DNA of 33,881 nucleotides from IMG/VR virus record IMGVR_UViG_3300022074_000185, positions 1 to 33,881 of that record; one strand, written 5' to 3'. The notes below the pieces were generated by a model. The model ran no database searches. It saw only the letters and a list, made by a program, of their open reading frames with translations, and had not been told where the DNA came from. Positions 2,923 through 32,365 of the stretch are shown here, piece by piece. Made by a program: the position numbers and the translations under genes. Positions within the stretch are counted from its first letter, which is position 1, and every line of letters begins with the position of its first letter. The stretch is from a virus.

Positions 2923-3348
2923 CTAACTAGTCCCGGTTGAGCCAAACCCACCAGAGCCCCGCTCAGAATCAGAAAGTTCGTTTACCTCAACATACTCTAT
3001 CTCAGGATAAGGCAAGATCATTATTTGTCCCACTCTATCTCCGGCTAGATAAACACCAGCACCTAGTGGTGAAGCAAACTTAAGCATTATTGACCCTCGA
3101 TATCCTGAGTCTATGACGCCTACTGCGTTCCTTAGAGACATTCCGGTTGTCTTTGAGATAGAAGATCTAGGGAAAATGAGGCCAACGTGACCTTCCGGTA
3201 TCTCCATTGCAATCTGTGTGTCATACACTTGGTTGCCGAACCTATCAACAGTGTGGCTCACAGCATAGAGATCCATACAGGCATCTCCGGGCTTTGCGTA
3301 TCTTGGTACTTTAGCATCTGGGCTTAGTTTTTTTATTTTTACTTTCAT
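2923..3348 (-). CDS. dut: dUTP pyrophosphatase
   Basis: A 141-residue protein with all five motifs of trimeric dUTPases in order: GDACMDLYA (1), PRSSISKT (2), GVIDSGYRGSIMLKF (3), GDRVGQIMILP (4) and RGSGGFGSTG (5). The enzyme turns dUTP into dUMP and pyrophosphate, which keeps uracil out of phage DNA and supplies dUMP to thymidylate synthase; a ThyX gene is at 18383-19117. Length is normal. ATG 3348 overlaps the upstream stop by ATGA and has an AAGGAGAG site. Confidence 0.96.
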   Translation of the reverse strand: MKVKIKKLSPDAKVPRYAKPGDACMDLYAVSHTVDRFGNQVYDTQIAMEIPEGHVGLIFPRSSISKTTGMSLRNAVGVIDSGYRGSIMLKFASPLGAGVYLAGDRVGQIMILPYPEIEYVEVNELSDSERGSGGFGSTGTS

Positions 3349-3623
3349 AATATCTCTCCTTCTCTGATATAAGTTGGTGGGTAGTTCGTATGCAAATCCA
3401 TTAGATATTTTGACTTGAACCTTCCTATGAGGAATTCATAGCCATCATCTGTCTTCTTTCTCTCCCACACTGTTGTTCCAAACTCAAAGTATGGAAACTT
3501 CTCACACTCTTTGGCATACGCCCGTTCACAATCTTGCAATGTGCCCTCGACGTTTTTAAATGCATAGTGTTTAATGCTAAAGTAATCAAACTTTAACGAT
3601 TCTTTAAAGAAAATATCATTCAT
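3345..3623 (-). CDS. Hypothetical protein (92 aa)
   Basis: A small protein rich in aromatic residues, with FKNVEGTLQDCERAYAKECE followed by a strand-rich half (FGTTVWERKKTDDGYEFLIG). It has no motif I recognise and neither a signal sequence nor a membrane segment. It overlaps dut by four bases and the methylase by eight, so it is translated within the nuclease-methylase-dut operon. The strong GGAGG site before ATG 3623 supports it as a real gene. Confidence 0.7.
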   Translation of the reverse strand: MNDIFFKESLKFDYFSIKHYAFKNVEGTLQDCERAYAKECEKFPYFEFGTTVWERKKTDDGYEFLIGRFKSKYLMDLHTNYPPTYIREGEIL

Positions 3624-4698
3624 GATTGCCTCCTTTGTCTATTACAATAACGTATTCTATGTTTTTCTTTTTCTTTGCGTTCTCTGCCTGGTCGCCACCA
3701 GCACCAATACGAGACATAACGTGTCTGTCATGTTCTTGTTGGTGAAACTCGTAGTCTGCGTACTCTTTACAGAGGGACTCCATCTCGTCATACGAAATAA
3801 GACCTTCATCTGAATAAGAGAATACACAATATCTAACAGGCAATCTGTCGATGAGTTCTCTTGTGGCATTGAGTGCGGTTCTCTTTGAGTACCAAGGGCT
3901 TTTCATTGACTTGTCATGGTGGTCTGAGGATTTAACTCTGTCCAATCTCCTGTTTGTTTTTAGACTTACATCTGGTTTGTCCCAGCGAGCGATACTATCC
4001 CAGATATGATAATACGTTGAGTAGTCCGCTGCTGTATATGGTGGGTCAAGGTAAGCGACCGAAGCTTCTGGGTATTCCACCTTCAATGCGTCCCCTGTAA
4101 TGTGTTCTCCTTCGAGACCTTCAATGCCCGGAAGAGGTGTTAGAACCAAGTCCTTGTGAACCCTGTCGGACTTCCAGCCTTTCAAGTAAGCCTGTTGTAG
4201 ACCTACTGTGTTGTCCAGTTTATCAAGAGCGAAGATGAGACAAGCGATAAGATAGGACTTTTCCCATGGATGAATGTTCATCGTCTCTATCTCTTCTCTA
4301 ATAGCATCAGCCTTGGCTCCGTTCTTTGGAGTCCACACCTTAATATTAACACTTGAGTCAGCTTTTGCAGCGACGTCGCAGTAGTGATTGGTCAGCCAGT
4401 CAGCACATGGTGTCAACAGGTTGAGTTGGTCAATGTACTGTTCAAGGTGAGATACATCTCCATTATTGCATATAAACGCCTCAGAGTACGCTTCAGAGGC
4501 CCAAGACAAGTCGCTAGTGATAACCTCGTAACCTTCTTGTTTAAGAGCCTGAGCAACCCTTGTCGTGCCTGTAAACACATCTATGACTTTGTTGTCATCT
4601 CTTTCCAGACCGTTAATTACTTTTGTAATTAATGGTAGTATCTTGTTTTTACTTCCTAGGTAACGGATACCATAGGTTATTATTTTATCATCACTCAT
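3616..4698 (-). CDS. D12-class DNA N6-adenine methyltransferase
   Basis: A 360-residue protein with the order of Dam/D12-class enzymes: an N-terminal RYLGSKNKILPLI segment, the AdoMet site VFTGTTRVAQALKQ at residues about 40-53, and the catalytic DPPY motif in AYLDPPYTAADYSTYY near residue 218. A target-recognition region lies between. It should methylate adenine N6 in a specific DNA sequence using AdoMet. It starts one base after the stop of a PD-(D/E)XK nuclease gene (4699-5175), with an AAGGAGG site. The pairing suggests a phage-borne restriction-modification pair, or a methylase that shields phage DNA from the neighbouring nuclease. A solitary protective methylase is the alternative. Confidence 0.92.
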   Translation of the reverse strand: MSDDKIITYGIRYLGSKNKILPLITKVINGLERDDNKVIDVFTGTTRVAQALKQEGYEVITSDLSWASEAYSEAFICNNGDVSHLEQYIDQLNLLTPCADWLTNHYCDVAAKADSSVNIKVWTPKNGAKADAIREEIETMNIHPWEKSYLIACLIFALDKLDNTVGLQQAYLKGWKSDRVHKDLVLTPLPGIEGLEGEHITGDALKVEYPEASVAYLDPPYTAADYSTYYHIWDSIARWDKPDVSLKTNRRLDRVKSSDHHDKSMKSPWYSKRTALNATRELIDRLPVRYCVFSYSDEGLISYDEMESLCKEYADYEFHQQEHDRHVMSRIGAGGDQAENAKKKKNIEYVIVIDKGGNHE

Positions 4699-5175
4699 TT
4701 ACACCTCCTTAATGTATTTTTCGAGTTCTTTTTTATATTGTTCAAAACCCCAGATAACTTTGACTGGTAGTTTTAGTCTTTTTGCTTCAGTTGCAAACTC
4801 TTTATAAACCTCAATATCTTGTGAAGCATCGCCGGTAAACACATACCACAGTTCATGCTCTTTACCATAAACACCAAACTCAATCTTCTTGAGGTCATAG
4901 AATACTTTTTCTTCTGTGGTTCCGTGTTTATCAGAATGCTTTTGTTCTACAATGATGTCCTTTTTACCTGGTACCTCAATGTAACCATCAGCGATAAACT
5001 TTCTTTGTTTCCCTGTTGGTGTTTTTTGTGACCAATGTTTGGGTGGCTTAAACAGTGTTTTACCCCAAAGTCTTTGTTTAATAAATGGCAACCCTAGTGA
5101 CTCGGTTAGTGCCTTTAATTTTCTCTCTGACTTTGTCCCGGACACAGCAGCGCCATGGTTATGTTGTAAACTCAT
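4699..5175 (-). CDS. PD-(D/E)XK nuclease, possible restriction endonuclease partner of the methylase
   Basis: The protein has 158 residues from ATG 5175. I prefer this start because TTGGAGG precedes it; the longer frame to 5211 would put the start within the -10 region. The core FIADGYIEV (Asp63), then KKDIIVEQKH (Glu77-X-Lys79), then a helix with FYDLKKIEF matches the D...(D/E)XK nuclease pattern. The N-terminal third is basic with HWSQKTPTGKQRKF. It is the first gene after a consensus promoter and is followed directly by the adenine methylase, so together they look like a compact type II-like pair. A DNA-end-processing nuclease is possible instead. I recognise the fold but not a specific family. 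Confidence 0.7.
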   Translation of the reverse strand: MSLQHNHGAAVSGTKSERKLKALTESLGLPFIKQRLWGKTLFKPPKHWSQKTPTGKQRKFIADGYIEVPGKKDIIVEQKHSDKHGTTEEKVFYDLKKIEFGVYGKEHELWYVFTGDASQDIEVYKEFATEAKRLKLPVKVIWGFEQYKKELEKYIKEV

Positions 5176-5199
5176 ATTATCCTCCAAGTTTATGTATAC

Positions 5200-5228
5200 A
5201 TTATAACACACTATTCTTTATTTGTCAA
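5200..5228 (-). promoter_or_regulatory. Sigma70 promoter (nuclease-methylase-dut unit)
   Basis: TTGACA (5228-5223), 17-nt spacer, TATAAT (5205-5200) with TGT directly upstream of the -10: both hexamers match consensus fully. The -35 box is made from the NLT codons of the preceding small gene. Confidence 0.9.
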
Positions 5229-8835: not shown

Positions 8836-8864
8836 ATTATAACACACTCTCTATAAGTTGTCAA
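8836..8864 (-). promoter_or_regulatory. Sigma70 promoter (dnaE)
   Basis: TTGACA (8864-8859), 17-nt spacer, TGT-TATAAT (-10 at 8841-8836). The -35 lies in the last codons of the upstream methylase gene. It drives dnaE about 15 nt downstream of the likely start point. Confidence 0.9.
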
Positions 8865-9549
8865 GTCTTTCTTTTGCTTTATCGTAGTATTCATCATCAG
8901 GCTCGCACCCGGCGTAAAGCCTGTCGGTGTTGTGTGCTGCCACAAGAGTGGTTGCAGCACCTGCAAATGTGTCTATCACGAGATCACCTTCATTGCTGTG
9001 CTTGAGGATCAACTCCTCAAACATCGCTGTTGGTTTTTGCGTTGGGTGAAAGCGACCCTTTTCGTGACAGATGGGATAGTGGTAAAAGCCCTTGTCATAC
9101 TCTGAGTTGAACGTAGGCTTTGATACCTTTACACCTGTCAGTGCCACTTCCCTAGCGTTAGTTAGGTAATTGCGTTTGCTGTTGAGCGGAACAGGGTTTC
9201 TCTTGACCCACTCAATCATTCTTATTTGTTTGAACTTTGCTTTCTCAAACATCTCTTTGACATAGGAAACCTTCCATATGTCGCAGAACACGATGGCTGT
9301 CCCTCCCTTGACCAAGACACGATAGTATTCGTTGATACTATCTTCAAGGTCTGCAAGTGAGAAGTTGTGCTCTTTGTCCCAGTCTCCGAACTCTGTGGAG
9401 TGGGCAAACCTTCTTACACCGGTGACGACAGACTCAAAGCCGGTCTTCTTGCTTATGATGTAAGGTGGGTCGGTCAACACAAGGTTGACGCTTTCCTTCT
9501 CCAATCCTTTTAAAAAGGTCAGAGAATCTGTTTTGTTAAACTTGTTCAT
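8851..9549 (-). CDS. DNA methyltransferase, beta-type N6-adenine/N4-cytosine (DPPY)
   Basis: A 232-residue protein with the catalytic motif early (LTDPPYIISKKTGF, residues about 25-38) and the AdoMet motif late (VIDTFAGAATTLVAAHNTDR, about 196-215). This order is typical of beta-class methylases such as MboIIM-type and phage Dam-like enzymes. HPTQKPTAMFEELIL is the conserved block before the AdoMet site. DPPY favours adenine N6. It is the last gene of the unit starting at 11995 and overlaps the VOC gene by TAATG. No nuclease lies next to it, so it is probably a solitary, protective or regulatory methylase. It is unlike the D12-class enzyme at 3616-4698, so the phage carries two unrelated methylases. 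Confidence 0.92.
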   Translation of the reverse strand: MNKFNKTDSLTFLKGLEKESVNLVLTDPPYIISKKTGFESVVTGVRRFAHSTEFGDWDKEHNFSLADLEDSINEYYRVLVKGGTAIVFCDIWKVSYVKEMFEKAKFKQIRMIEWVKRNPVPLNSKRNYLTNAREVALTGVKVSKPTFNSEYDKGFYHYPICHEKGRFHPTQKPTAMFEELILKHSNEGDLVIDTFAGAATTLVAAHNTDRLYAGCEPDDEYYDKAKERLDNL

Positions 9550-9845: not shown

Positions 9846-10005
9846 GTTTCCCCTCTATCTTTCTTAGTGCCTGTTCCAACAAGAACAAGGCGGTCTTTAC
9901 TTCTTTATCGTATTCATCTGCTGATGTACACCAATGTTGCGCTCTTTTAAGCTTCTTGACAACTCCGTCAATTAGAAGCCATAGTTTTTGTTCATGCTGA
10001 TTCAT
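9835..10005 (-). CDS. Small helical protein (56 aa)
   Basis: A short gene between clpS and the VOC gene with a GGAGG site 5 nt before ATG 10005; the ATG overlaps the clpS stop (ATGA). The protein, starting MNQHEQKLWLLIDGVVKKLK, is mostly charged amphipathic helix and ends in EQALRKIEGKHED. No family recognised. The tight overlaps on both sides and the strong ribosome site support it as real. Confidence 0.65.
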   Translation of the reverse strand: MNQHEQKLWLLIDGVVKKLKRAQHWCTSADEYDKEVKTALFLLEQALRKIEGKHED

Positions 10006-10328
10006 TCTTCCTCCATTGTTAACAACAGAGGATGTTCAAACACCTTTGCAATATCCATTGCTTGTATCAGTTTCATCTCAGCAACCTCCTTTGAATACAC
10101 ACCTGCTATGCCTTTGCCTGTTGTATGCACTGCTGCTGCAAGGGCCCTAGCTTGTTGTGCGCTCTTGTAAAACACCTGCATCAAGATAAATTCAACATCT
10201 TGAAACGGAGTGTAGTCATCGTTATGAATAACAATCTTGTATTTACTGGGTGGTACAACCTTTTGTCGGTCCATTGTTCCAACGCCGGCTCCCACACCGT
10301 GTTTCTTATCTTTTTTTCTTTGAGTCAT
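10002..10328 (-). CDS. clpS: ClpS-like adaptor
   Basis: A 108-residue protein. After a basic, low-complexity N-terminus of about 28 residues it has the ClpS core: KYKIVIHNDDYTPFQDVEFI, then helices with QQARALAAAVHTTGKGIAGV, then a YSKEVAEMK block and a final PLLLTMEEE. The NDDYTP loop and the VH.TG motif are the hallmarks of ClpS, which binds N-degron residues and delivers substrates to ClpA/ClpC. A phage ClpS could redirect host N-degron proteolysis or feed the phage-encoded ClpP (814-1482), but no Clp ATPase gene is present here. It is coupled by ATGA to the GIY-YIG gene upstream. Confidence 0.9.
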   Translation of the reverse strand: MTQRKKDKKHGVGAGVGTMDRQKVVPPSKYKIVIHNDDYTPFQDVEFILMQVFYKSAQQARALAAAVHTTGKGIAGVYSKEVAEMKLIQAMDIAKVFEHPLLLTMEEE

Positions 10329-11056
10329 CCTCTCTCCTTTGGTATTATTTTATTGTAAAGCTGCTCTCCATGGTCAAGTCTTCGCTGTACCTCTTTTGCC
10401 TCCTCTAGCATCAGTACTTCTTTGTCCTTTGGCAATTCTTTTATTATTGACCACTTAAACACTTCTTCTCCGTGTTCGTTAAAGTCTTGTTGGAATGTAG
10501 AGTTTGGGTGTTTATTTAGCCTTAAGTATTGGAGGTGCCTTTTCCAACGAAGTTTTCCCCTTGTTGTTTCCCCAATATACACTTTGCCATTTATAGTGTT
10601 TAATATTTGATATACACATGCTGGTTCTTTTTCGCATCTTTTGGAATAACATTCTTTGCTTTTGGCCAATATTTCTTCTCTATTTTCTTCTTGGTATTTT
10701 TTGTAATACTCCTTGTTTTCTTTATAAAACTTTCTGCTGTATTCAATCTTCTTTTGTCTTATGGTCGGATCTGCGTTTCTTTCTTTGTCGTATTGTCTTT
10801 TTTTCTCTTTCGCTTCAGGGGTGCTATAGTATTTTTTTCTCTTCTCTTTGAACTCTGGCTTGTCTTTGTTTTTAAGGTACCACTTTCTACTACTTTCGCG
10901 ATGCTTTTGTTTTATAGTAGGGTCTTTTCCATATCTAATCTCATCGTATTCACTTACACAGGATTTACACCAATGGCGAAGTCCGTCTTTGTTGGCACTT
11001 TTTTTATGAAATTCAGTTAAAAGCTTTTCAGTTCCGCATTTTGTACACTTCTTCAT
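10325..11056 (-). CDS. GIY-YIG nuclease with N-terminal zinc-ribbon (homing-endonuclease-like)
   Basis: A 243-residue protein. It starts with a four-Cys zinc motif (CTKCG at 4-8, CKSC at 30-33). A very basic helical linker follows, with two copies of a repeat beginning DPTIKQKHRESSRKWY and DPTIRQKKIEYSRKFY. The C-terminal nuclease domain has VYQILNTINGKVYIGETTRG, the catalytic Arg in LRWKRHLQYL, a Glu-rich helix (LEEAKEVQ) and the closing LYNKI. This is the layout of freestanding phage homing enzymes such as the T4 Seg proteins. It sits between an adenosine-deaminase-like gene and clpS, without a visible intron. Its Lys/Asn-rich make-up differs somewhat from its neighbours, as expected for a mobile gene. 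Confidence 0.85.
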   Translation of the reverse strand: MKKCTKCGTEKLLTEFHKKSANKDGLRHWCKSCVSEYDEIRYGKDPTIKQKHRESSRKWYLKNKDKPEFKEKRKKYYSTPEAKEKKRQYDKERNADPTIRQKKIEYSRKFYKENKEYYKKYQEENREEILAKSKECYSKRCEKEPACVYQILNTINGKVYIGETTRGKLRWKRHLQYLRLNKHPNSTFQQDFNEHGEEVFKWSIIKELPKDKEVLMLEEAKEVQRRLDHGEQLYNKIIPKERG

Positions 11057-11057
11057 G

Positions 11058-11945
11058 TTACCTCCTAAATAAAGCCTCTATTGCATATTGTTTACATTTC
11101 TTTGTATCTTGATACGACAGTCCACAGTGTGCGACAGCCCTTCGATACTCCATCGGCAAGATTGTGTCAGACAATAGTGTATTGTCAGCACAGATGGCGA
11201 CACGTACATCTTCGTCTATCCACTTTTTGATAGGGTGTTTTGACAGGGCGTCTATAGCGCCAGTGTGCCAGTTTGATGTTATGCATGCCTCTATGGTCAC
11301 TTCTCTTTCTCTGACGAGGTCGAGCACCTTTCGGCTTTCCATTAGCGTTGTGCCGTGGCCTATTCTTTGTGCGTGAAGAAAATTTATAGCGACCTCAATC
11401 TCGTTTGGAGATCGACCTTCTCCGGCATGCACAGTTCGACCTATTCCATATTTCTTAGCTTTCTCAAATGGTTCGATGTAATCCATCAAGGACCAACGAT
11501 GAGTCGGCAATGGTGCACCTGCTAAATCTATACCGACAACTCTCGGCTTGCCTCTTGCCATCTCAACGAGAGTATTTAGAACGTCAGGTGGCTCTCCATA
11601 TAGTCCACATAAGATAATCGATGAGTGTTCGGATAAACCGCTGATGGCGGCATCGATTATCTTCTCGATTGGAGCGCCCTGATGAAGTTGTGGGGCGAAA
11701 CGTATCTCGGTGTATGAATGTCCGAAAGCTATTGCATCCAAGCAAATTTCCTCAGTAACTCTCTCAATGGACTCTGGATCTTGTAGTATCGACAGTGTTG
11801 TCTTAAACCGAGACAGTGCCTCATCAATCCCCATACCGGGGTAAAACTTGATTTTATTTGGTATTTCTAAGTTCTTTTGCCTAAGAAGGTCCGTGAGTGT
11901 CGATAACCGCATAGAACCGTCCAGATGGCAGTGTAGTTCAACCAT
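11058..11945 (-). CDS. Adenosine deaminase-like amidohydrolase with altered metal-site motif
   Basis: A 295-residue protein. It starts directly with MVELHCHLDGSMR (the HxH zinc ligands), followed by TVHAGE (zinc His and catalytic Glu), RIGHGT (conserved His), CITSNWHTG and ICADNTLLSDT. In known adenosine deaminases the last block reads TDDP, with one Asp on zinc and the next binding the purine. Here the pair is Asp-Asn, so zinc can be held but purine contact may differ. Such enzymes turn (deoxy)adenosine into (deoxy)inosine; related enzymes act on AMP or N6-methyladenosine. With two DNA adenine methylases in the same phage, a modified adenine nucleoside is a possible substrate, but that is inference. 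It is first in its unit, with TTGGAGG before ATG 11945. Confidence 0.85.
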   Translation of the reverse strand: MVELHCHLDGSMRLSTLTDLLRQKNLEIPNKIKFYPGMGIDEALSRFKTTLSILQDPESIERVTEEICLDAIAFGHSYTEIRFAPQLHQGAPIEKIIDAAISGLSEHSSIILCGLYGEPPDVLNTLVEMARGKPRVVGIDLAGAPLPTHRWSLMDYIEPFEKAKKYGIGRTVHAGEGRSPNEIEVAINFLHAQRIGHGTTLMESRKVLDLVREREVTIEACITSNWHTGAIDALSKHPIKKWIDEDVRVAICADNTLLSDTILPMEYRRAVAHCGLSYQDTKKCKQYAIEALFRR

Positions 11946-11966: not shown

Positions 11967-11995
11967 ATTATAACATGCAATCGTTTAACTGTCAA
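11967..11995 (-). promoter_or_regulatory. Sigma70 promoter (adenosine deaminase to methylase unit)
   Basis: TTGACA (11995-11990), 17-nt spacer, TGT-TATAAT (-10 at 11972-11967). The -35 is inside the final codons (LLDS-stop) of the upstream coiled-coil gene. Confidence 0.9.
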
Positions 11996-14824: not shown

Positions 14825-15411
14825 TATAACTCCAAATTAAATAATTGTTTTAAAAAGCACTTGACGAGTTTTTGTTTGCATTCATCATCCTCGTCGCATA
14901 AATGATATTTCCAAGAATACATCTCTTCGTTGTGCTTTATCTTTCCTTTAAGTGTCTTTGCTTCCTCTTTTAAGAGCGGTATAAGCTCCGCCAGGTTCTC
15001 TGGTTCTATCTCCAACTCTACGGCCTCCTCTAGCAAGAGTGACCAATCTCCATTCTTATAAGCTTCCGCTACTTTTTTAAATTTCTTCACATCCCCTGTT
15101 TCTTTGTCTGGGTGAAGTTCTCTGGCTAATTTTTTGTATAGCTTGCTGATCTTCTTTTCGTCGCGTTTCACCACTGGTGCTTCCAAGGGGACCAACTTCT
15201 CTTCTCTAGTCTTGAAAACTTGCTCTACTTGTTTTGCATTGTCCTGATTTAACTGAACGAGATCAAAATCGTTATTTGCACACCATTCTCTATAATAGAA
15301 TTCAAATTCCAAATGTGCTTCTGAAAGAACTGCTTCTTGATAATCCAATTCTGATCGAAGATACTTCACCTCCTGCAATATTTTTTTATACTTTTTCTTT
15401 GTTAATAACAT
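14824..15411 (-). CDS. J-domain (DnaJ-like) protein
   Basis: About 195 residues. The N-terminal third is a charged helical region. Residues about 85-122 (KKISKLYKKLARELHPDKET, then FKKVAEAYKNGDW) are a clear J-domain core with HPD at 100-102. An acidic C-terminal part follows, with two Cys (CDEDDECKQK). J proteins stimulate Hsp70 (DnaK) through HPD, so this phage probably recruits host DnaK for folding, replication or assembly. Start choice is awkward: ATG 15411 lies within the -10 box of the promoter at 15410-15438 and lacks a ribosome site. Either read-through mRNA is used for this start, or a downstream non-ATG start near the AGGAGG at about 15375 is used. Confidence 0.75.
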   Translation of the reverse strand: MLLTKKKYKKILQEVKYLRSELDYQEAVLSEAHLEFEFYYREWCANNDFDLVQLNQDNAKQVEQVFKTREEKLVPLEAPVVKRDEKKISKLYKKLARELHPDKETGDVKKFKKVAEAYKNGDWSLLLEEAVELEIEPENLAELIPLLKEEAKTLKGKIKHNEEMYSWKYHLCDEDDECKQKLVKCFLKQLFNLEL

Positions 15412-15438
15412 TATAACATATCTAGTCTGTTCTGTCAA
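15410..15438 (-). promoter_or_regulatory. Sigma70 promoter (J-domain to coiled-coil unit)
   Basis: TTGACA (15438-15433), 17-nt spacer, TGT-TATAAT (-10 at 15415-15410). The -35 is in the end of the upstream gene, and the -10 contains the first two bases of the apparent ATG of the J-domain gene. Confidence 0.88.
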
Positions 15439-20313: not shown

Positions 20314-20342
20314 ATTATAACATTTTATACTGGTTTTGTCAA
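20314..20342 (-). promoter_or_regulatory. Sigma70 promoter (GroES-like to nucleotidyltransferase-like unit)
   Basis: TTGACA (20342-20337), 17-nt spacer, TGT-TATAAT (-10 at 20319-20314). The -35 lies 3 nt past the stop of the Hc1-like gene. Confidence 0.9.
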
Positions 20343-23818: not shown

Positions 23819-24765
23819 GAATTTATCTGTTTAAGAACTCTGTATAAATTGTCAAGTTTCAGTGTGATCTGTCCGTCTTCCATCAGGAGCTTCTGAAACC
23901 CAATCTTGTTGTATTCTGCTTCAAAATTCTGGACAGCATATTCTATTTGTTTTTTTGCATAGTTGCTAATCACTGGTTCATATAACTGCATGATTTCGTA
24001 GTTGTTTTCTATCAGGTCAGCAAACTCGATAATTTTTGTGTGAACGCTAACCGGTTTGTCCACTTGTCTGCAATATTCTGTAAGTGACTCAACGGTTTGA
24101 ACTTGTGGGTCAGCCATAAAAGGAAAACGACTTTTAACTGTTTTAAGCCCAACACGAGGCACCCCGTCGAGGTTATCTGACTTATCTCCTGCAATAGCCC
24201 TAGCAAGGGCAAAATTATTGGGATGAATACCATGTTCAGACAAGAGACTATCTTTTGTAACAAGTTTTTTCTGTATTGGCCTATAGAGACTTGTTCGGTC
24301 TCCGATGAGTTGGAAAAAATCTCTATCGCTTGAGATAATATACTTGTGGTGGTCTCGATACTTATCGTGTCCATTAAGATAAGCGATAATATCATCGGCT
24401 TCCACATAGTCAAGAATGATTTGAATAATTGGTAACTCATTTAAGTACTCCATTAGTCTAACGTGTTGATAGGCTTTATTGTGTTCCTGTTCCGTCTCAG
24501 AGAGATCGAACATCCTTCGGTTGAACCGTACAGGTGCTCGACCCTCCTTATATCCCTTGTTCATTTCTTTGCGCTTTTGAGAGCCGCCTTTACCATCCCA
24601 AGCGATAATCACTTCGTTCGGATTGAAATCGTTGCAAGTTTTCTGGAGCGACTTGATGAACCCTATCGCTCCTCCTATGATATTACCCTTTGGGTCCATC
24701 GTTGGGTTTATGATATACGATCTCAAAAACATGTTAAGACCATCAATTATTACTACTTTTTTCAT
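23815..24765 (-). CDS. 5'-3' exonuclease (FEN / T4 RNase H-like)
   Basis: A 316-residue protein with the FEN acidic sites in order: VVIIDGLNMFLRSY (first Asp), EVIIAWDGKGGSQKRKEM (second Asp), YVEADDIIAYLNG (Glu-Asp-Asp), YIISSDRDFFQL (two Asp) and AGDKSDNLDGVPRVG, the helix-hairpin-helix part with the last Asp pair. It removes RNA primers or flaps 5' to 3' during lagging-strand synthesis. The short PolA at 32359-33546 lacks this domain, so the function is supplied separately. It overlaps uvsE by ATGA. Confidence 0.92.
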   Translation of the reverse strand: MKKVVIIDGLNMFLRSYIINPTMDPKGNIIGGAIGFIKSLQKTCNDFNPNEVIIAWDGKGGSQKRKEMNKGYKEGRAPVRFNRRMFDLSETEQEHNKAYQHVRLMEYLNELPIIQIILDYVEADDIIAYLNGHDKYRDHHKYIISSDRDFFQLIGDRTSLYRPIQKKLVTKDSLLSEHGIHPNNFALARAIAGDKSDNLDGVPRVGLKTVKSRFPFMADPQVQTVESLTEYCRQVDKPVSVHTKIIEFADLIENNYEIMQLYEPVISNYAKKQIEYAVQNFEAEYNKIGFQKLLMEDGQITLKLDNLYRVLKQINS

Positions 24766-25694
24766 ACTGCCTCCATGAGTTCTCGCATCTTGAAGAGAGC
24801 CAATTCCTTGTGCTTTGCCTCAAGCATAATGTCCATTTCATGTCCGTAAGTATTTACTGGTCGGACGTAGGAGTCTGAGTGGGCTTGTGGTTTGATCTTG
24901 GGATCATTATGTTCATCTGATCTAGATTCTGAGTAGTGGACAACAGGACGAATATCCACAGGCCAAGTAGAAAGAGCCATGTCAAGAGCTTCTTTCTCGG
25001 TTTGACCTCCATCATGAAGATCGTGGTGATGATAGTCAAATACCACAGGAATGCCAATGTTTTTATGGATATTATCATATAGTTCCCTCGTTGTATATAG
25101 TGACGGTTTGTCATCATTCTCGACAGTTAGTCTTGTTTTGACGGCTTCCGATAACCTTTGAAAATTCTTGCAAAAGTTACCAATGGCCATAGATTTGTCA
25201 TCATATGCTGCTCCTACGTGTATATTGATTTTAGCAAATGGTGATCGTTCAAGAAACATAAGATCAAAGATCTCGCCATGAATCTCTAGATCACGGATAG
25301 TATTTAGTATCACAGACTCTTTTGGACTAGTCAATTTGTTAAAAGGCCCAGGATGACTGGTAATACGAATGTTACGTTCTGATGCGAACAAACCAGCCTC
25401 ATACAATGCTTCTGAAATAGCATCAAAGTCTGGTAGGTCCGATAGTTCATATTCAGATGCCCAAGGGAATAGGTTAGATGACAATCGAAAGAAACGAATG
25501 TCATTTTGGTCGTTCCACTTAAGGATCTCAAGTAAGTCCTTGCAGTTCAGTAGTGCAAGTTCTGAAGCGTATGCAGAGCCCTTCTCTTTGAAAGTTCTCT
25601 TAATCATACTTCTGTTTGTTGTAATGCGCTTGTTTTTTGGTCTTTCTGAAAAGCCATGGTTAATACAAGCATAACCCAAATTGTAATTGGTCAT
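24762..25694 (-). CDS. uvsE: UV-damage endonuclease UvsE/UVDE
   Basis: A 310-residue TIM-barrel repair enzyme with the family motifs: NLGYACIN at the start, RITTNRSM, FFRLSSNLFPWAS, RITSHPGPF, INIHVGAA, TVENDD, VFDYHHHDLHDG, VVHYSESR and DIMLEAKHKELALF. The His, Glu and Asp residues in these blocks bind the metal cluster. It nicks DNA 5' of cyclobutane dimers and 6-4 products. It is the first gene after its own promoter and is paired with the FEN gene, which could process the resulting nick, so the two may form a small repair unit. Full length for the family. Confidence 0.95.
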   Translation of the reverse strand: MTNYNLGYACINHGFSERPKNKRITTNRSMIKRTFKEKGSAYASELALLNCKDLLEILKWNDQNDIRFFRLSSNLFPWASEYELSDLPDFDAISEALYEAGLFASERNIRITSHPGPFNKLTSPKESVILNTIRDLEIHGEIFDLMFLERSPFAKINIHVGAAYDDKSMAIGNFCKNFQRLSEAVKTRLTVENDDKPSLYTTRELYDNIHKNIGIPVVFDYHHHDLHDGGQTEKEALDMALSTWPVDIRPVVHYSESRSDEHNDPKIKPQAHSDSYVRPVNTYGHEMDIMLEAKHKELALFKMRELMEAV

Positions 25695-26906: not shown

Positions 26907-28469
26907 TTAGTATTGGAATAGTGTTCTGAACATTTTACTTTCACTTAATTTCTCTATCTTAAAACTAAGTCTTGGGTCGTTTAAACGTTCCAAATAACGA
27001 TCCTTCAGCATAACCATTTTTTCATCAATGTCATCACATATTAGAGTTAGATAAACGTTTCCCTCTCTTTCTCTTAATAATTCTATGGCATAACCCATAC
27101 ATTGATTGATATGTTCTCTCTTTGCTGGACCGTTTTTTATTTCATGAACATAGAGATTGTTGTTCCTATCAAAATAACTGATATCTAGTCTACCGCCAGT
27201 TTCAGTATGTCTCTCGCGACTGATGTTGTGAAACCCTGTGTATTCTGACATGTCTGCTAGTTGACTGTAAATTTTATCTTGCTTGGCTTTTTCTTTAACA
27301 TAAGAGCGCTTTGTAAAATATCTACTCATATAGTTTATGGCCTTGCCAGTTTGTGGATTTGGCTTCTTTCCTATCAGGATTTCTCTGACTTTGTCAAACC
27401 ATTTTCTAGTTTCAGTATCTGTGTTTATTCCGTCCTTAGTGTTGGTTGTGCTAAAGTCTGTGGGTTCCAAGTGGACCTCGATGTACAGACGATTGTGTAG
27501 ACCTTGATTGCCACCTCTTGTGAAACCAGTAGACATTCCTAGCAGCTCCATACCATCGAAGCCACCGCAAATTTTAATATCGTCTAAATAGATGTCTGCT
27601 CCGAAATCAGTATTTGATACTTTATGCGGATGAACAGAGCCATATATATTTTCCTTATAAGACGAATCTTCTGGTTCTTTTTTGTAGCCTACTTTGACTA
27701 GTCCTTTCTTGTTGTTAGTCTCTACCGGAAAGACAAGCATGAAGCTGCTTTCCTGATTATCTGGATTAATTATTGGACACGTAATTGGCCTGACTCTCTT
27801 GGAAACTGTGCCGCCGGGAGGATAGGTATATTCAACGTATATGTTGATGGTTATACCTCTCTTTTCATACTGGTTTATGAGTAAGCCATAATCTGATCCC
27901 AATTTGTTCAAAAAGCCAAAGAACTTGCTGTTGTGCCTTAGATTTGGTGAAAACAGATCAAATTTCGGATTCTCAAACCAAAGCTCCAAGCCAGACGCCA
28001 CATCGGTTTGTTCTATTTCAATTTCGTGTAGCCCTAGACCCAGTTCCGTAACAACCATTTTTTGGTGCTTATGTATGTTGACAATTTTCCAGTCGTTTTC
28101 CAATCCAGATGATGTCTTCACGATAGCCAAATTTAGACCATTATTGTGTTCATTTTTAAATGAACCAGTTGAACCCTTTGGGTGCCTGAAGGCTATACAT
28201 TCTCCTAACTCATTTGGATCAATACCTATAACGTCATCAGCATACGACAAGGTCTTTGCATTCTTATCTTTATCAAAGGCAACTGCCATTTTAAAGTTGT
28301 AAACATCACGCTTGGCGCCTGTTTTTATATCTGAGTCTACGGCTGCAAAGAAATTGTTTATTATCTCTTTAACAACCGACATCTCTTTTACATTTGTTGC
28401 ATCTAGCGATCTTAGTATGTTGCTGTAATCAAGTGGGACGTTTATACTCAATATGTTGTTCTTGTTCAT
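26907..28469 (-). CDS. GHKL-type ATPase fused to C-terminal PD-(D/E)XK nuclease (520 aa)
   Basis: The N-terminal part has a possible GHKL N-box (KEIINNFFAAVD, Glu35 and Asn38/39), an ADDVIGIDPNEL stretch at 77-88 like the D.G.G lid box, and GSFKNEHNNGLNLAIVK (102-118) like the G2 box of gyrase/Hsp90/MutL/MORC ATPases. The C-terminal about 95 residues (GGRLDISYFD with Asp429, YVHEIKNG with Glu443-X-Lys445, and QCMGY with Gln456 and Tyr460) form a PD-(D/E)XK nuclease with the QxxxY motif of RecB-type members. The middle (about 200-420) is not recognised. Such architecture suggests ATP-driven clamping of DNA followed by cutting. It lies 15 nt upstream of uvsX, so a recombination, repair or anti-host-DNA role is likely. 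ATPase assignment is less certain than the nuclease. Confidence 0.6.
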   Translation of the reverse strand: MNKNNILSINVPLDYSNILRSLDATNVKEMSVVKEIINNFFAAVDSDIKTGAKRDVYNFKMAVAFDKDKNAKTLSYADDVIGIDPNELGECIAFRHPKGSTGSFKNEHNNGLNLAIVKTSSGLENDWKIVNIHKHQKMVVTELGLGLHEIEIEQTDVASGLELWFENPKFDLFSPNLRHNSKFFGFLNKLGSDYGLLINQYEKRGITINIYVEYTYPPGGTVSKRVRPITCPIINPDNQESSFMLVFPVETNNKKGLVKVGYKKEPEDSSYKENIYGSVHPHKVSNTDFGADIYLDDIKICGGFDGMELLGMSTGFTRGGNQGLHNRLYIEVHLEPTDFSTTNTKDGINTDTETRKWFDKVREILIGKKPNPQTGKAINYMSRYFTKRSYVKEKAKQDKIYSQLADMSEYTGFHNISRERHTETGGRLDISYFDRNNNLYVHEIKNGPAKREHINQCMGYAIELLREREGNVYLTLICDDIDEKMVMLKDRYLERLNDPRLSFKIEKLSESKMFRTLFQY

Positions 28470-28980
28470 TGTTTCTCCTTTTGTTGAACCTTTTGATTCT
28501 TCTTTGTGTGTCTTTTATTTCCTTTTCAGTTCCGACATACACAAGTCGGGTTCCAAACAACCTATCAAACTTATCTGTTGTAACTCCCCAGTTCATTTCC
28601 TGTGTTGTTGCCATATGGTGGGCATAATGCCAAGGATAGTGTTCTTTGCACCATTCTGGTTCTAAGTGGGCCCTCCGGTGAACATAATAGTACCGGAGAG
28701 CACCGACGACGATTCCGCCGTATAAACCAAAGGAGATAATTATGGTAGGTAAATGTATAATAACTAAAAAGATAATTGAAAGGGTTTCTTTTAGAGAAGG
28801 CTCATCTTGAAACAGATTGTTTCTAGAGTTCCTGTGATGTTCATAAAAGTGATAAGCAAAAAATTTATTCTTTTTATCCTTTCCTAGTTTGTGTAAAAGA
28901 TGTTTATGTATTACCCATTCGAGTAGTTGAGCATAAACAAAACCCAAGTAAAGAAAACCACAAACTATTAAAACATCCAT
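28429..28980 (-). CDS. Fatty acid hydroxylase/sterol desaturase-superfamily membrane protein
   Basis: A 183-residue protein with membrane segments at about 1-25 and 62-90 and the eight-His layout of this di-iron superfamily: EWVIHKHLLH, YHFYEHHRNSRNN, YYYVHRRAHL and YPWHYAHHMATTQEMNWGVT. The end DRLFGTRLVYVG is also typical. Members add hydroxyl groups to acyl chains, carotenoids or sterols using O2. In a phage this would be an auxiliary metabolic gene acting on membrane lipid or carotenoid of the host. It overlaps the GHKL-nuclease gene by 41 nt and has an AAGAGG site. The substrate cannot be read from the sequence. Confidence 0.83.
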   Translation of the reverse strand: MDVLIVCGFLYLGFVYAQLLEWVIHKHLLHKLGKDKKNKFFAYHFYEHHRNSRNNLFQDEPSLKETLSIIFLVIIHLPTIIISFGLYGGIVVGALRYYYVHRRAHLEPEWCKEHYPWHYAHHMATTQEMNWGVTTDKFDRLFGTRLVYVGTEKEIKDTQRRIKRFNKRRNNEQEQHIEYKRPT

Positions 28981-30459: not shown

Positions 30460-30488
30460 ATTATAACATACTTTTGAAAGTTTGTCAA
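30460..30488 (-). promoter_or_regulatory. Sigma70 promoter (SH3-like, ssb to uvsX unit)
   Basis: TTGACA (30488-30483), 17-nt spacer, TGT-TATAAT (-10 at 30465-30460). A-tracts upstream on the minus strand (about 30489-30510) look like an UP element. Confidence 0.92.
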
Positions 30489-30908: not shown

Positions 30909-30937
30909 ATTATAACATATTCTGTTATGTTTGTCAA
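30909..30937 (-). promoter_or_regulatory. Sigma70 promoter (membrane microgene pair)
   Basis: TTGACA (30937-30932), 17-nt spacer, TGT-TATAAT (-10 at 30914-30909), with A-rich DNA upstream. The TGA stop of the 27-residue gene lies in the -35 box. Confidence 0.9.
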
Positions 30938-31065: not shown

Positions 31066-31560
31066 TTATTTTTGAAGTTTTTTTATCGAGGCTTTTAGGG
31101 ATGTCGAATTCCCTTCAACAATAATTGAAGGCTTAACTTTGTGTGTAAGTTTATTATGATTTGGAAGTGATGATGTGTTTATAAAACGATAGTCGTTCTC
31201 AATACCTGTGACGTCATACATATCAACGCATATCACGTCGCAAAAATCATATTCATATAACCGAACTTCCTGTTTTTCTCTAATGGCTCTTTGGAAATCA
31301 ACCTTTCCAGTTCCTGTTCTTTTTGCCTCTATTTTAATAACTTGGTCCGTGCGAATATTTGTTACAGTAAAGTCAGCTCCACCGTCTTTGTTATGAACAA
31401 GAGACCAATCTTCTCCAAGATGTGATTTAATATATATATAAGCTTCAAGTTCTGATATTGCTCCTGCCATAGCTATTCTTGCCATTCGGCTGTCTTTCAA
31501 CCAGTCGCTTAACTCCGGAGAGAGATGTTTTTTATAACGTGAATCATTAATGTTACTCAT
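31066..31560 (-). CDS. PD-(D/E)XK nuclease-like protein (164 aa)
   Basis: I use ATG 31560, which has AAGGAGG upstream, not the longer frame. The motif part is KDGGADFTVTNI (Asp63) followed by QVIKIEAKRTG (Glu78-X-Lys80), the core of PD-(D/E)XK enzymes. An N-terminal helix with AGAISELEAYIYIKSHLG and a C-terminal mixed region (YEYDFCDVICVDMYDV) surround it. The small size and the single recognisable domain fit a restriction-like or repair nuclease; no family name can be given. It overlaps the tubulin-like gene by eight bases. Confidence 0.65.
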   Translation of the reverse strand: MSNINDSRYKKHLSPELSDWLKDSRMARIAMAGAISELEAYIYIKSHLGEDWSLVHNKDGGADFTVTNIRTDQVIKIEAKRTGTGKVDFQRAIREKQEVRLYEYDFCDVICVDMYDVTGIENDYRFINTSSLPNHNKLTHKVKPSIIVEGNSTSLKASIKKLQK

Positions 31561-32365
31561 ATTGTCCTCCTTGAATGTAATGTGTGTATTTAATAGAGTA
31601 AAAGTAAGAAAGACCAGAGGTATTCTTCCAAATACCAAATGAAGCTTCAATTCCACTGTCGTCATCATTTGCTATCTTGGCTCTAATACTCTTTAGAAAC
31701 CCAGGGTTATCCTCTTGGTCTTCCTCACTTACACTATAATAATAACACGTTTCAGTTATGTTGTCAAGTAAAAAGTATAAGTTTTCTTCATCTTTATTTG
31801 GATCTCCGAGAGAGACCGTCTTTATCCTTGAGATCTTATTTGGTTCAAACAGGGAACCCATAAATGGCGGATTGTTATCAAACCAAGCTATATTGGATAT
31901 GAAATTTGCTATAGCATCGTTGATCTTGTCATAGTACGAACCAATCGAGTCTTCTCCAACCCAACTTTGTATCTGTTGGTTTGATAAAAGCCACAAACCA
32001 TCAATCAGTCCAGATCTTGCAAATTCTTGTAAAACATTGAATACGACCTTTTCCTGTTTTTTCTGTGTCTTTGTCAGCAGCACCGGATCAGAAGTGATAT
32101 GAACAACATTAACATTCCGACCATTTAGTTGCTCCAACAGAGCAAGTGTAGCACCAGAAACCTTACCAGCGCCAGCAACAATGAGCCAAATGTCTTGTTC
32201 TTTACCAAGTTTAAGCTTGTTTGCCATTTTAGGGACGCTAGCTTCGTATTCCTCGTGTGTTTTACACTTGGGAAGGTTCTTACCCCCGTCAACCACTATC
32301 GTCCTTATATGGCCTATTTTAGAGCATATCTCGGCTCCTCCTTGTCCTAGTCCTATAACTACCAT
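31553..32365 (-). CDS. Tubulin/FtsZ-superfamily-like protein (270 aa)
   Basis: The protein starts directly with a strand and glycine loop, MVVIGLGQGGAEICSKIG, like the first GTP-binding loop of FtsZ and tubulin. A second loop IVVDGGKN follows, then DIWLIVAGAGKVSGATLALL, where AGAGKVSGA (64-72) stands at the place of the tubulin signature GGGTGSG. Next come NVNVVHITSDP, EKVVFNVLQEFARSGLIDGL and WLLSNQQI (Asn129), then YYDKINDAIANFISNI, the pattern of FtsZ strand 5 to helix 7. The C-terminal half is short and diverged. Residues for GTP hydrolysis are not certain, so it may bind nucleotide without forming filaments. It lies directly after the polymerase gene (7-nt overlap). Confidence 0.62.
   Translation of the reverse strand: MVVIGLGQGGAEICSKIGHIRTIVVDGGKNLPKCKTHEEYEASVPKMANKLKLGKEQDIWLIVAGAGKVSGATLALLEQLNGRNVNVVHITSDPVLLTKTQKKQEKVVFNVLQEFARSGLIDGLWLLSNQQIQSWVGEDSIGSYYDKINDAIANFISNIAWFDNNPPFMGSLFEPNKISRIKTVSLGDPNKDEENLYFLLDNITETCYYYSVSEEDQEDNPGFLKSIRAKIANDDDSGIEASFGIWKNTSGLSYFYSIKYTHYIQGGQYE
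31739..31767 (-). promoter_or_regulatory. Internal sigma70-type promoter within the tubulin-like gene
   Basis: TTGACA (31767-31762), 17-nt spacer, TGT-TATTAT (-10 at 31744-31739, one mismatch). It lies in codons for the LLDNITETCYYY region and would transcribe the nuclease gene at 31066-31560 on its own. Confidence 0.65.

Follow-up and report, generated by a model that had tools for sequence, protein, structure and literature searches.

A probable Type II restriction-modification gene pair with exchangeable nuclease genes in a group of uncultivated tailed phages

Results

Gene arrangement and promoter

The window, i.e., the whole stretch of DNA analysed, is the virus record IMGVR_UViG_3300022074_000185 with a length of 33,881 bases, whose main genes lie on the minus strand. 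The features of the locus, together with the promoters of the same type in the window, are as follows:

3345-3623, minus strand: small ORF, 92 aa, overlapping the end of the methyltransferase gene (ORF list, Pfam search, gene order of relatives)
3616-4698, minus strand: D12-class N6-adenine DNA methyltransferase (MTase), 360 aa (Pfam PF02086, PADLOC MTase_II PDLC03298, motifs in alignment)
4699-5175, minus strand: putative Type II restriction endonuclease (REase; family A), 158 aa, PD-(D/E)XK (translation, family A alignment, fold prediction and PDB comparison)
5176-5199, minus strand: short leader with Shine-Dalgarno sequence GGAGG (read from sequence)
5200-5228, minus strand: promoter TTGACA-N17-TATAAT with TG before the -10 box (sequence match; similar promoter in the close relative L009)
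1908-1936, 5200-5228, 8836-8864, 11967-11995, 15410-15438, 20314-20342, 30460-30488 and 30909-30937, minus strand: perfect promoters of the type TTGACA-N15-TG-TTATAAT

Both ORFs of the pair are intact and encoded on the minus strand. The nuclease start was taken as the ATG at 5175, whereas an upstream GTG (5211) is given as start in the mechanical ORF list. Since the nuclease stop codon TAA (4701-4699) directly precedes the MTase start codon ATG at 4698, the gap between the genes is 0 bp. An earlier note on this DNA had described a nuclease and a D12 methylase gene adjacent to each other without a gap, nuclease first, behind one promoter. The arrangement was confirmed (4699-5175 and 3616-4698, stop abutting start), and the single promoter ahead of both genes holds as a sequence match: a sigma-70 site at 5228-5200, approximately 25 bases upstream of the nuclease start, scores 12/12. 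Strong Shine-Dalgarno sequences were found at both starts (GGAGG for the nuclease, AAGGAGG for the MTase). The 92 aa ORF at 3345-3623 is probably part of the same transcript; it belongs to no family in Pfam and was not found behind the pair in relatives.

Perfect copies of the promoter occur eight times on the minus (gene) strand of the whole record, and a ninth is located on the plus strand. When up to two mismatches were allowed, 15 matches were observed compared to 5.3 expected, and no shuffle gave 15. The eight perfect gene-strand promoters represent one common extended -10 class. A similar promoter is present 54 bp before the nuclease of L009, while a simple scan for the pattern revealed none ahead of the pair in the other relatives.

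Gene content of the record

The record encodes several proteins of DNA metabolism, namely a DnaE-type polymerase, a small Pol I-like polymerase, a DnaB-like helicase, a UvsX recombinase, an SSB and a ribonucleotide reductase; ThyX- and dUTPase-like proteins were recognized by eye. Genes for an adenosine deaminase, a GIY-YIG endonuclease and a UvdE UV endonuclease are present on the minus strand (11058-11945, 10325-11056 and 24762-25694, respectively). A second DNA MTase at 8851-9549 (minus strand; N6_N4_Mtase, CcrM-like, Pfam 2.9e-33) has no nuclease neighbour. Two further observations concern possible nucleases: a 520 aa protein (26907-28469, minus strand) carries at its end a weak match to the NucS C-terminal nuclease (0.00046, below the cut-off), and a small ORF (31066-31668, minus strand) shows the pattern GADF...IEAK, which is PD-(D/E)XK-like by eye but has no significant Pfam match. 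Besides a fatty acid hydroxylase domain (28429-28980, minus strand, 3.1e-10), we found a ClpS adaptor (Pfam 9.5e-22) and a ClpP protease (9.4e-35) at 10002-10328 and 814-1482 on the minus strand, which could possibly redirect host protein degradation.

Methyltransferase and nuclease

The MTase matches Pfam MethyltransfD12 (PF02086; 8.2e-26), and its best PADLOC family is the Type II MTase family PDLC03298 (1e-68, 230 bits). The motifs DVFTGTT and DPPYT are intact; in an alignment with 14 relatives, DVFTGTT and DPPY are invariant or nearly so. In the MTases of L010, L018 and L025, the YCD motif is followed by a charged insertion with a length of approximately 23-31 residues, which is absent from the others.

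For the 158 aa nuclease, searches in Pfam, PADLOC and beyond revealed no database family of its own, and no restriction enzyme of the PDB was found to match it in sequence. PDB sequence matches obtained with the nuclease and MTase profiles (a designed protein, alpha-synuclein) were dismissed as chance. Two relatives matched Pfam PDDEXK_11 (PF20472) with 17.5 and 15.3 bits, i.e., below the gathering threshold of 23.7; the record's own nuclease had no PDDEXK_11 match in the Pfam search. In the family A alignment, the residues D63, E77 and K79 are invariant in all nine rows, and the motif HGTT-x-EK (84-90) is likewise invariant across nine related proteins.

An AlphaFold model of the nuclease (pLDDT 78, pTM 0.76) adopts a PD-(D/E)XK fold. 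Among its best structural matches are several Type II enzymes, i.e., BstEII (Z 9.2), BsaWI (8.3) and PspGI (8.1) over 131-137 residues, although Z values near 8-9 are not far over background. MunI (Z 7.0), the third match in Foldseek (E 0.015), ranks below these three in Z. Archaeal Hjc Holliday junction resolvases reach Z 6.5-7.0 over approximately 95-100 residues, below the best restriction enzymes, and CRISPR-ancillary nucleases are also among the matches. Thus, the fold indicates a nuclease but not by itself a restriction enzyme, as resolvases and CRISPR-ancillary nucleases match too. The earlier assignments nevertheless stand: a D12 adenine methylase is indicated by Pfam and PADLOC, and a PD-(D/E)XK nuclease by the invariant D63...E77-x-K79, the sub-threshold PDDEXK_11 matches of two relatives and the predicted fold. 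The nucleases are under purifying selection, as the two pairs with the least saturation gave dN/dS values of 0.07 and 0.15.

Nuclease A was not found among named phages and plasmids. GTDB genomes contain one match, in a WOR-3 MAG (L060, CP070664.1). This match is flanked by runs of N, the same MTase follows behind it in truncated form and a terminase gene lies past the gap; consequently, L060 is probably phage sequence which was mis-scaffolded into the "chromosome" of the MAG.

Linkage in related contigs

Searches of IMG/VR yielded 20 contigs with an MTase of 59-91% identity and, additionally, two distant ones (L026 and L027, 41-42%). L011 was left out of the linkage count due to a contig edge directly before its MTase, and the contigs include near-copies of a single phage. 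In 19/19 uncut relatives the MTase is preceded by a putative nuclease gene belonging either to family A (11 contigs) or to a second family, B (8 contigs, including L021, whose B gene is itself cut by the contig edge). Nuclease and MTase are at most 20 bp apart in 18 of these 19 relatives. The exception is L009 with 163 bp between the genes, so the pair need not abut. The distant MTase homologs L026 and L027 have no family A or B nuclease as neighbour.

The pair follows the DnaE polymerase gene in this record, L009 and L010 as well as in L012-L014, which are of type B. In L003-L005 and L019, by contrast, it lies between an SSB gene and a RecA/UvsX-like gene, in this order. It occurs as a unit in at least two genomic neighbourhoods. 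Far from being a one-off, the pair represents a module conserved within a group of uncultivated tailed phages.

A second, probable nuclease family beside the same methyltransferase

Family B proteins have a length of 285-320 aa and share E-x-K and KGxGxxE-like motifs. No homology between families A and B was detected by sequence comparison, and neither of them scores above threshold in Pfam or PADLOC. The best structural matches of family B are weak (HhaI, Z 4.2; HinP1I, Z 3.6; both Type II REases), and Foldseek gave nothing significant. Based on the conserved E-x-K motif and the weak structural match, the family B gene probably encodes another cutter. Of the nine records in which both families were looked for, those with A lacked B and vice versa. 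According to a maximum-likelihood tree of the MTases, the nuclease type must have changed three times, and strongly supported branches force at least two of these changes; for instance, L016 (type B) is nested in a mostly type A group with 99/99 support. In another phage group (L069-L072), family B is encoded directly before a different D12 MTase, which presumably resembles T4 Dam (GATC).

Discussion

Several elements of a Type II restriction-modification (R-M) system were found together: an MTase whose catalytic and SAM motifs are intact, a linked but separate nuclease gene with an intact active site, and conservation of this linkage. The earlier note had suggested a phage-borne R-M pair, and this reading gained support from three independent patterns, i.e., from the linkage to a putative nuclease gene in 19/19 relatives, from the replacement of the nuclease by a sequence-unrelated gene beside an orthologous MTase and from the joint presence of the pair at a second genomic site. 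We therefore assign a probability of roughly 0.8 to the view that a tailed, probably virulent phage carries here a complete Type II R-M system which serves the virus and not its host. No tyrosine integrase was found in ten records, including one of 158 kb with a terminase gene, which fits a virulent life style but does not prove it.

MTases encoded by phages are mostly orphan (PMC10477858), and the pair sits amid replication and nucleotide genes. The nuclease might thus be a structure-specific enzyme of repair or recombination resembling Holliday junction resolvases, with archaeal Hjc structures (Z 6.5-7.0) among its fold matches, while the MTase would be an orphan methylase acting against restriction, both being neighbours only by way of a shared DNA-metabolism region. 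However, a resolvase would be expected to keep with the replication genes and not with one MTase, whereas this nuclease stays with its MTase at two genomic sites and can be replaced by a sequence-unrelated family. Linkage, mutual exclusion of A and B, their exchanges and the two neighbourhoods are better explained by a Type II system with interchangeable endonucleases, and we regard the repair enzyme as very unlikely. An orphan methylase lying beside an unrelated gene was rejected as an explanation, since the linkage persists at both sites and through nuclease exchange. A different question is what an R-M pair would do for the phage. It could primarily be a mobile element of selfish nature or serve superinfection exclusion, spreading between phages and having no part in the degradation of host DNA. 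Its at least two genomic positions and the exchanged nucleases would suit such an element, and the R-M system of a marseillevirus spares host DNA and was proposed to target competing viruses (PMC7253447). On the other hand, the pair has a promoter of the type common to other genes of this phage, likely read by the host polymerase, and the restriction enzymes of chloroviruses, to which degradation of host DNA is ascribed, were found not to cause mutual exclusion (PMC7019647). An exclusive role of this kind appears rather unlikely, although host degradation and exclusion of competitors are not incompatible with each other.

Concerning the target, a specific proposal compatible with an R-M pair is recognition of AATT, which would make the nuclease a reduced relative of the EcoRI/MunI/MluCI group. 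The MTase of Thermus phage phiLo, annotated as "putative M.Tsp509I", has the same best PADLOC family PDLC03298 (586 bits compared to 230 for the MTase studied here), and Tsp509I recognises AATT. MunI (CAATTG), as the third Foldseek match, points in the same direction, as does G85-T-T-x-E-K, which follows ExK at a spacing similar to that of GNAIER in EcoRI (EcoRI letters checked). However, MunI falls behind BstEII, BsaWI and PspGI in Z, and a profile comparison of family A with an EcoRI fragment by hhalign gave no significant match (probability 0.7%, E 0.085). Furthermore, family B also accompanies the other D12 MTase in L069-L072, and the count of AATT is not unusual among the 16 palindromic tetramers, which contain nothing diagnostic of a target. 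We consider AATT unlikely as the recognition sequence. EcoRI, MunI and MluCI have been named as possible mosaics in a review (PMC4081073).

If the pair acts as a Type II system, the D12 MTase would methylate adenine in a short sequence on the phage genome, so that virion DNA enters the cell protected. Soon after infection, host RNA polymerase would transcribe from the strong sigma-70-type promoter first the nuclease and then the MTase gene, presumably as early genes. The endonuclease, probably a homodimer, would cut DNA without the methyl mark, while new phage DNA would be methylated; cutting is thus expected to be sequence-specific, with a target common to both enzymes. The nuclease-first order, dangerous for a bacterium acquiring an R-M system, should be harmless to the phage because its incoming DNA would already be methylated. 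Possible substrates are the host chromosome, which might supply nucleotides for the ribonucleotide reductase, ThyX and dUTPase of the phage, and/or the DNA of competing phages or plasmids. Due to the surrounding genes of nucleotide metabolism, we would rank degradation of host DNA first and exclusion of competitors second. Tentatively, R-M may even be a standard weapon in a group of tailed phages, in which the MTase is kept while selection drives the exchange of at least two unrelated endonucleases that share one specificity (e.g., for escape from inhibitors of host or phage origin), with the nuclease destroying the unmethylated host chromosome as infection begins.

R-M is commonly presented as a means by which bacteria defend themselves against phages, with phage methylases in the role of shields. 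If a phage group carries both halves, the weapon is reversed and pre-methylated phage DNA is set against unmethylated DNA of host or competitor. An exact-phrase search of an open-access collection of papers returned none on phage-encoded R-M, which does not exclude that such papers exist. Families A and B appear to be uncharacterised enzymes and might offer useful specificities. Two sequence-unrelated nucleases swapped beside one MTase further provide a ready test set for non-homologous isoschizomers.

Comparison with known systems

Approximately 157 aa suffice for a homodimeric, sequence-specific PD-(D/E)XK REase, as is known from PvuII and other small Type II enzymes; the phage nuclease differs from these in having no sequence match to restriction enzymes of the PDB. 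The D12 MTase of phiLo (MH673673), from whose annotation the name M.Tsp509I for an MTase of the PDLC03298 type derives, shares this family with the MTase described here and is 33% identical over 95% of the length. However, it lacks a nuclease neighbour, and the adjacent 141 aa ORF starts like a helix-turn-helix/excisionase protein by eye. The GATC R-M system of a marseillevirus (mel_015/mel_016) resembles the phage pair in its adjacent viral genes for a REase and a 6mA MTase, with the REase transcribed first, but belongs to a giant virus of amoebae, targets GATC and does not degrade host DNA (PMC7253447). Adjacent virus-encoded REase and 6mA MTase genes are also found in the Type II systems of chloroviruses (e.g., CviAI and CviAII of PBCV-1), where the REases are credited with breaking down unmethylated host DNA early in infection (PMC7019647). 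Chloroviruses are eukaryotic viruses which package their REases in the virion (PMC7019647), whereas the present pair belongs to a tailed phage, and its nuclease families score below threshold in both Pfam and PADLOC. Thus, the system is of a known kind, but its carrier is unusual and it comprises two apparently uncharacterised nuclease families.
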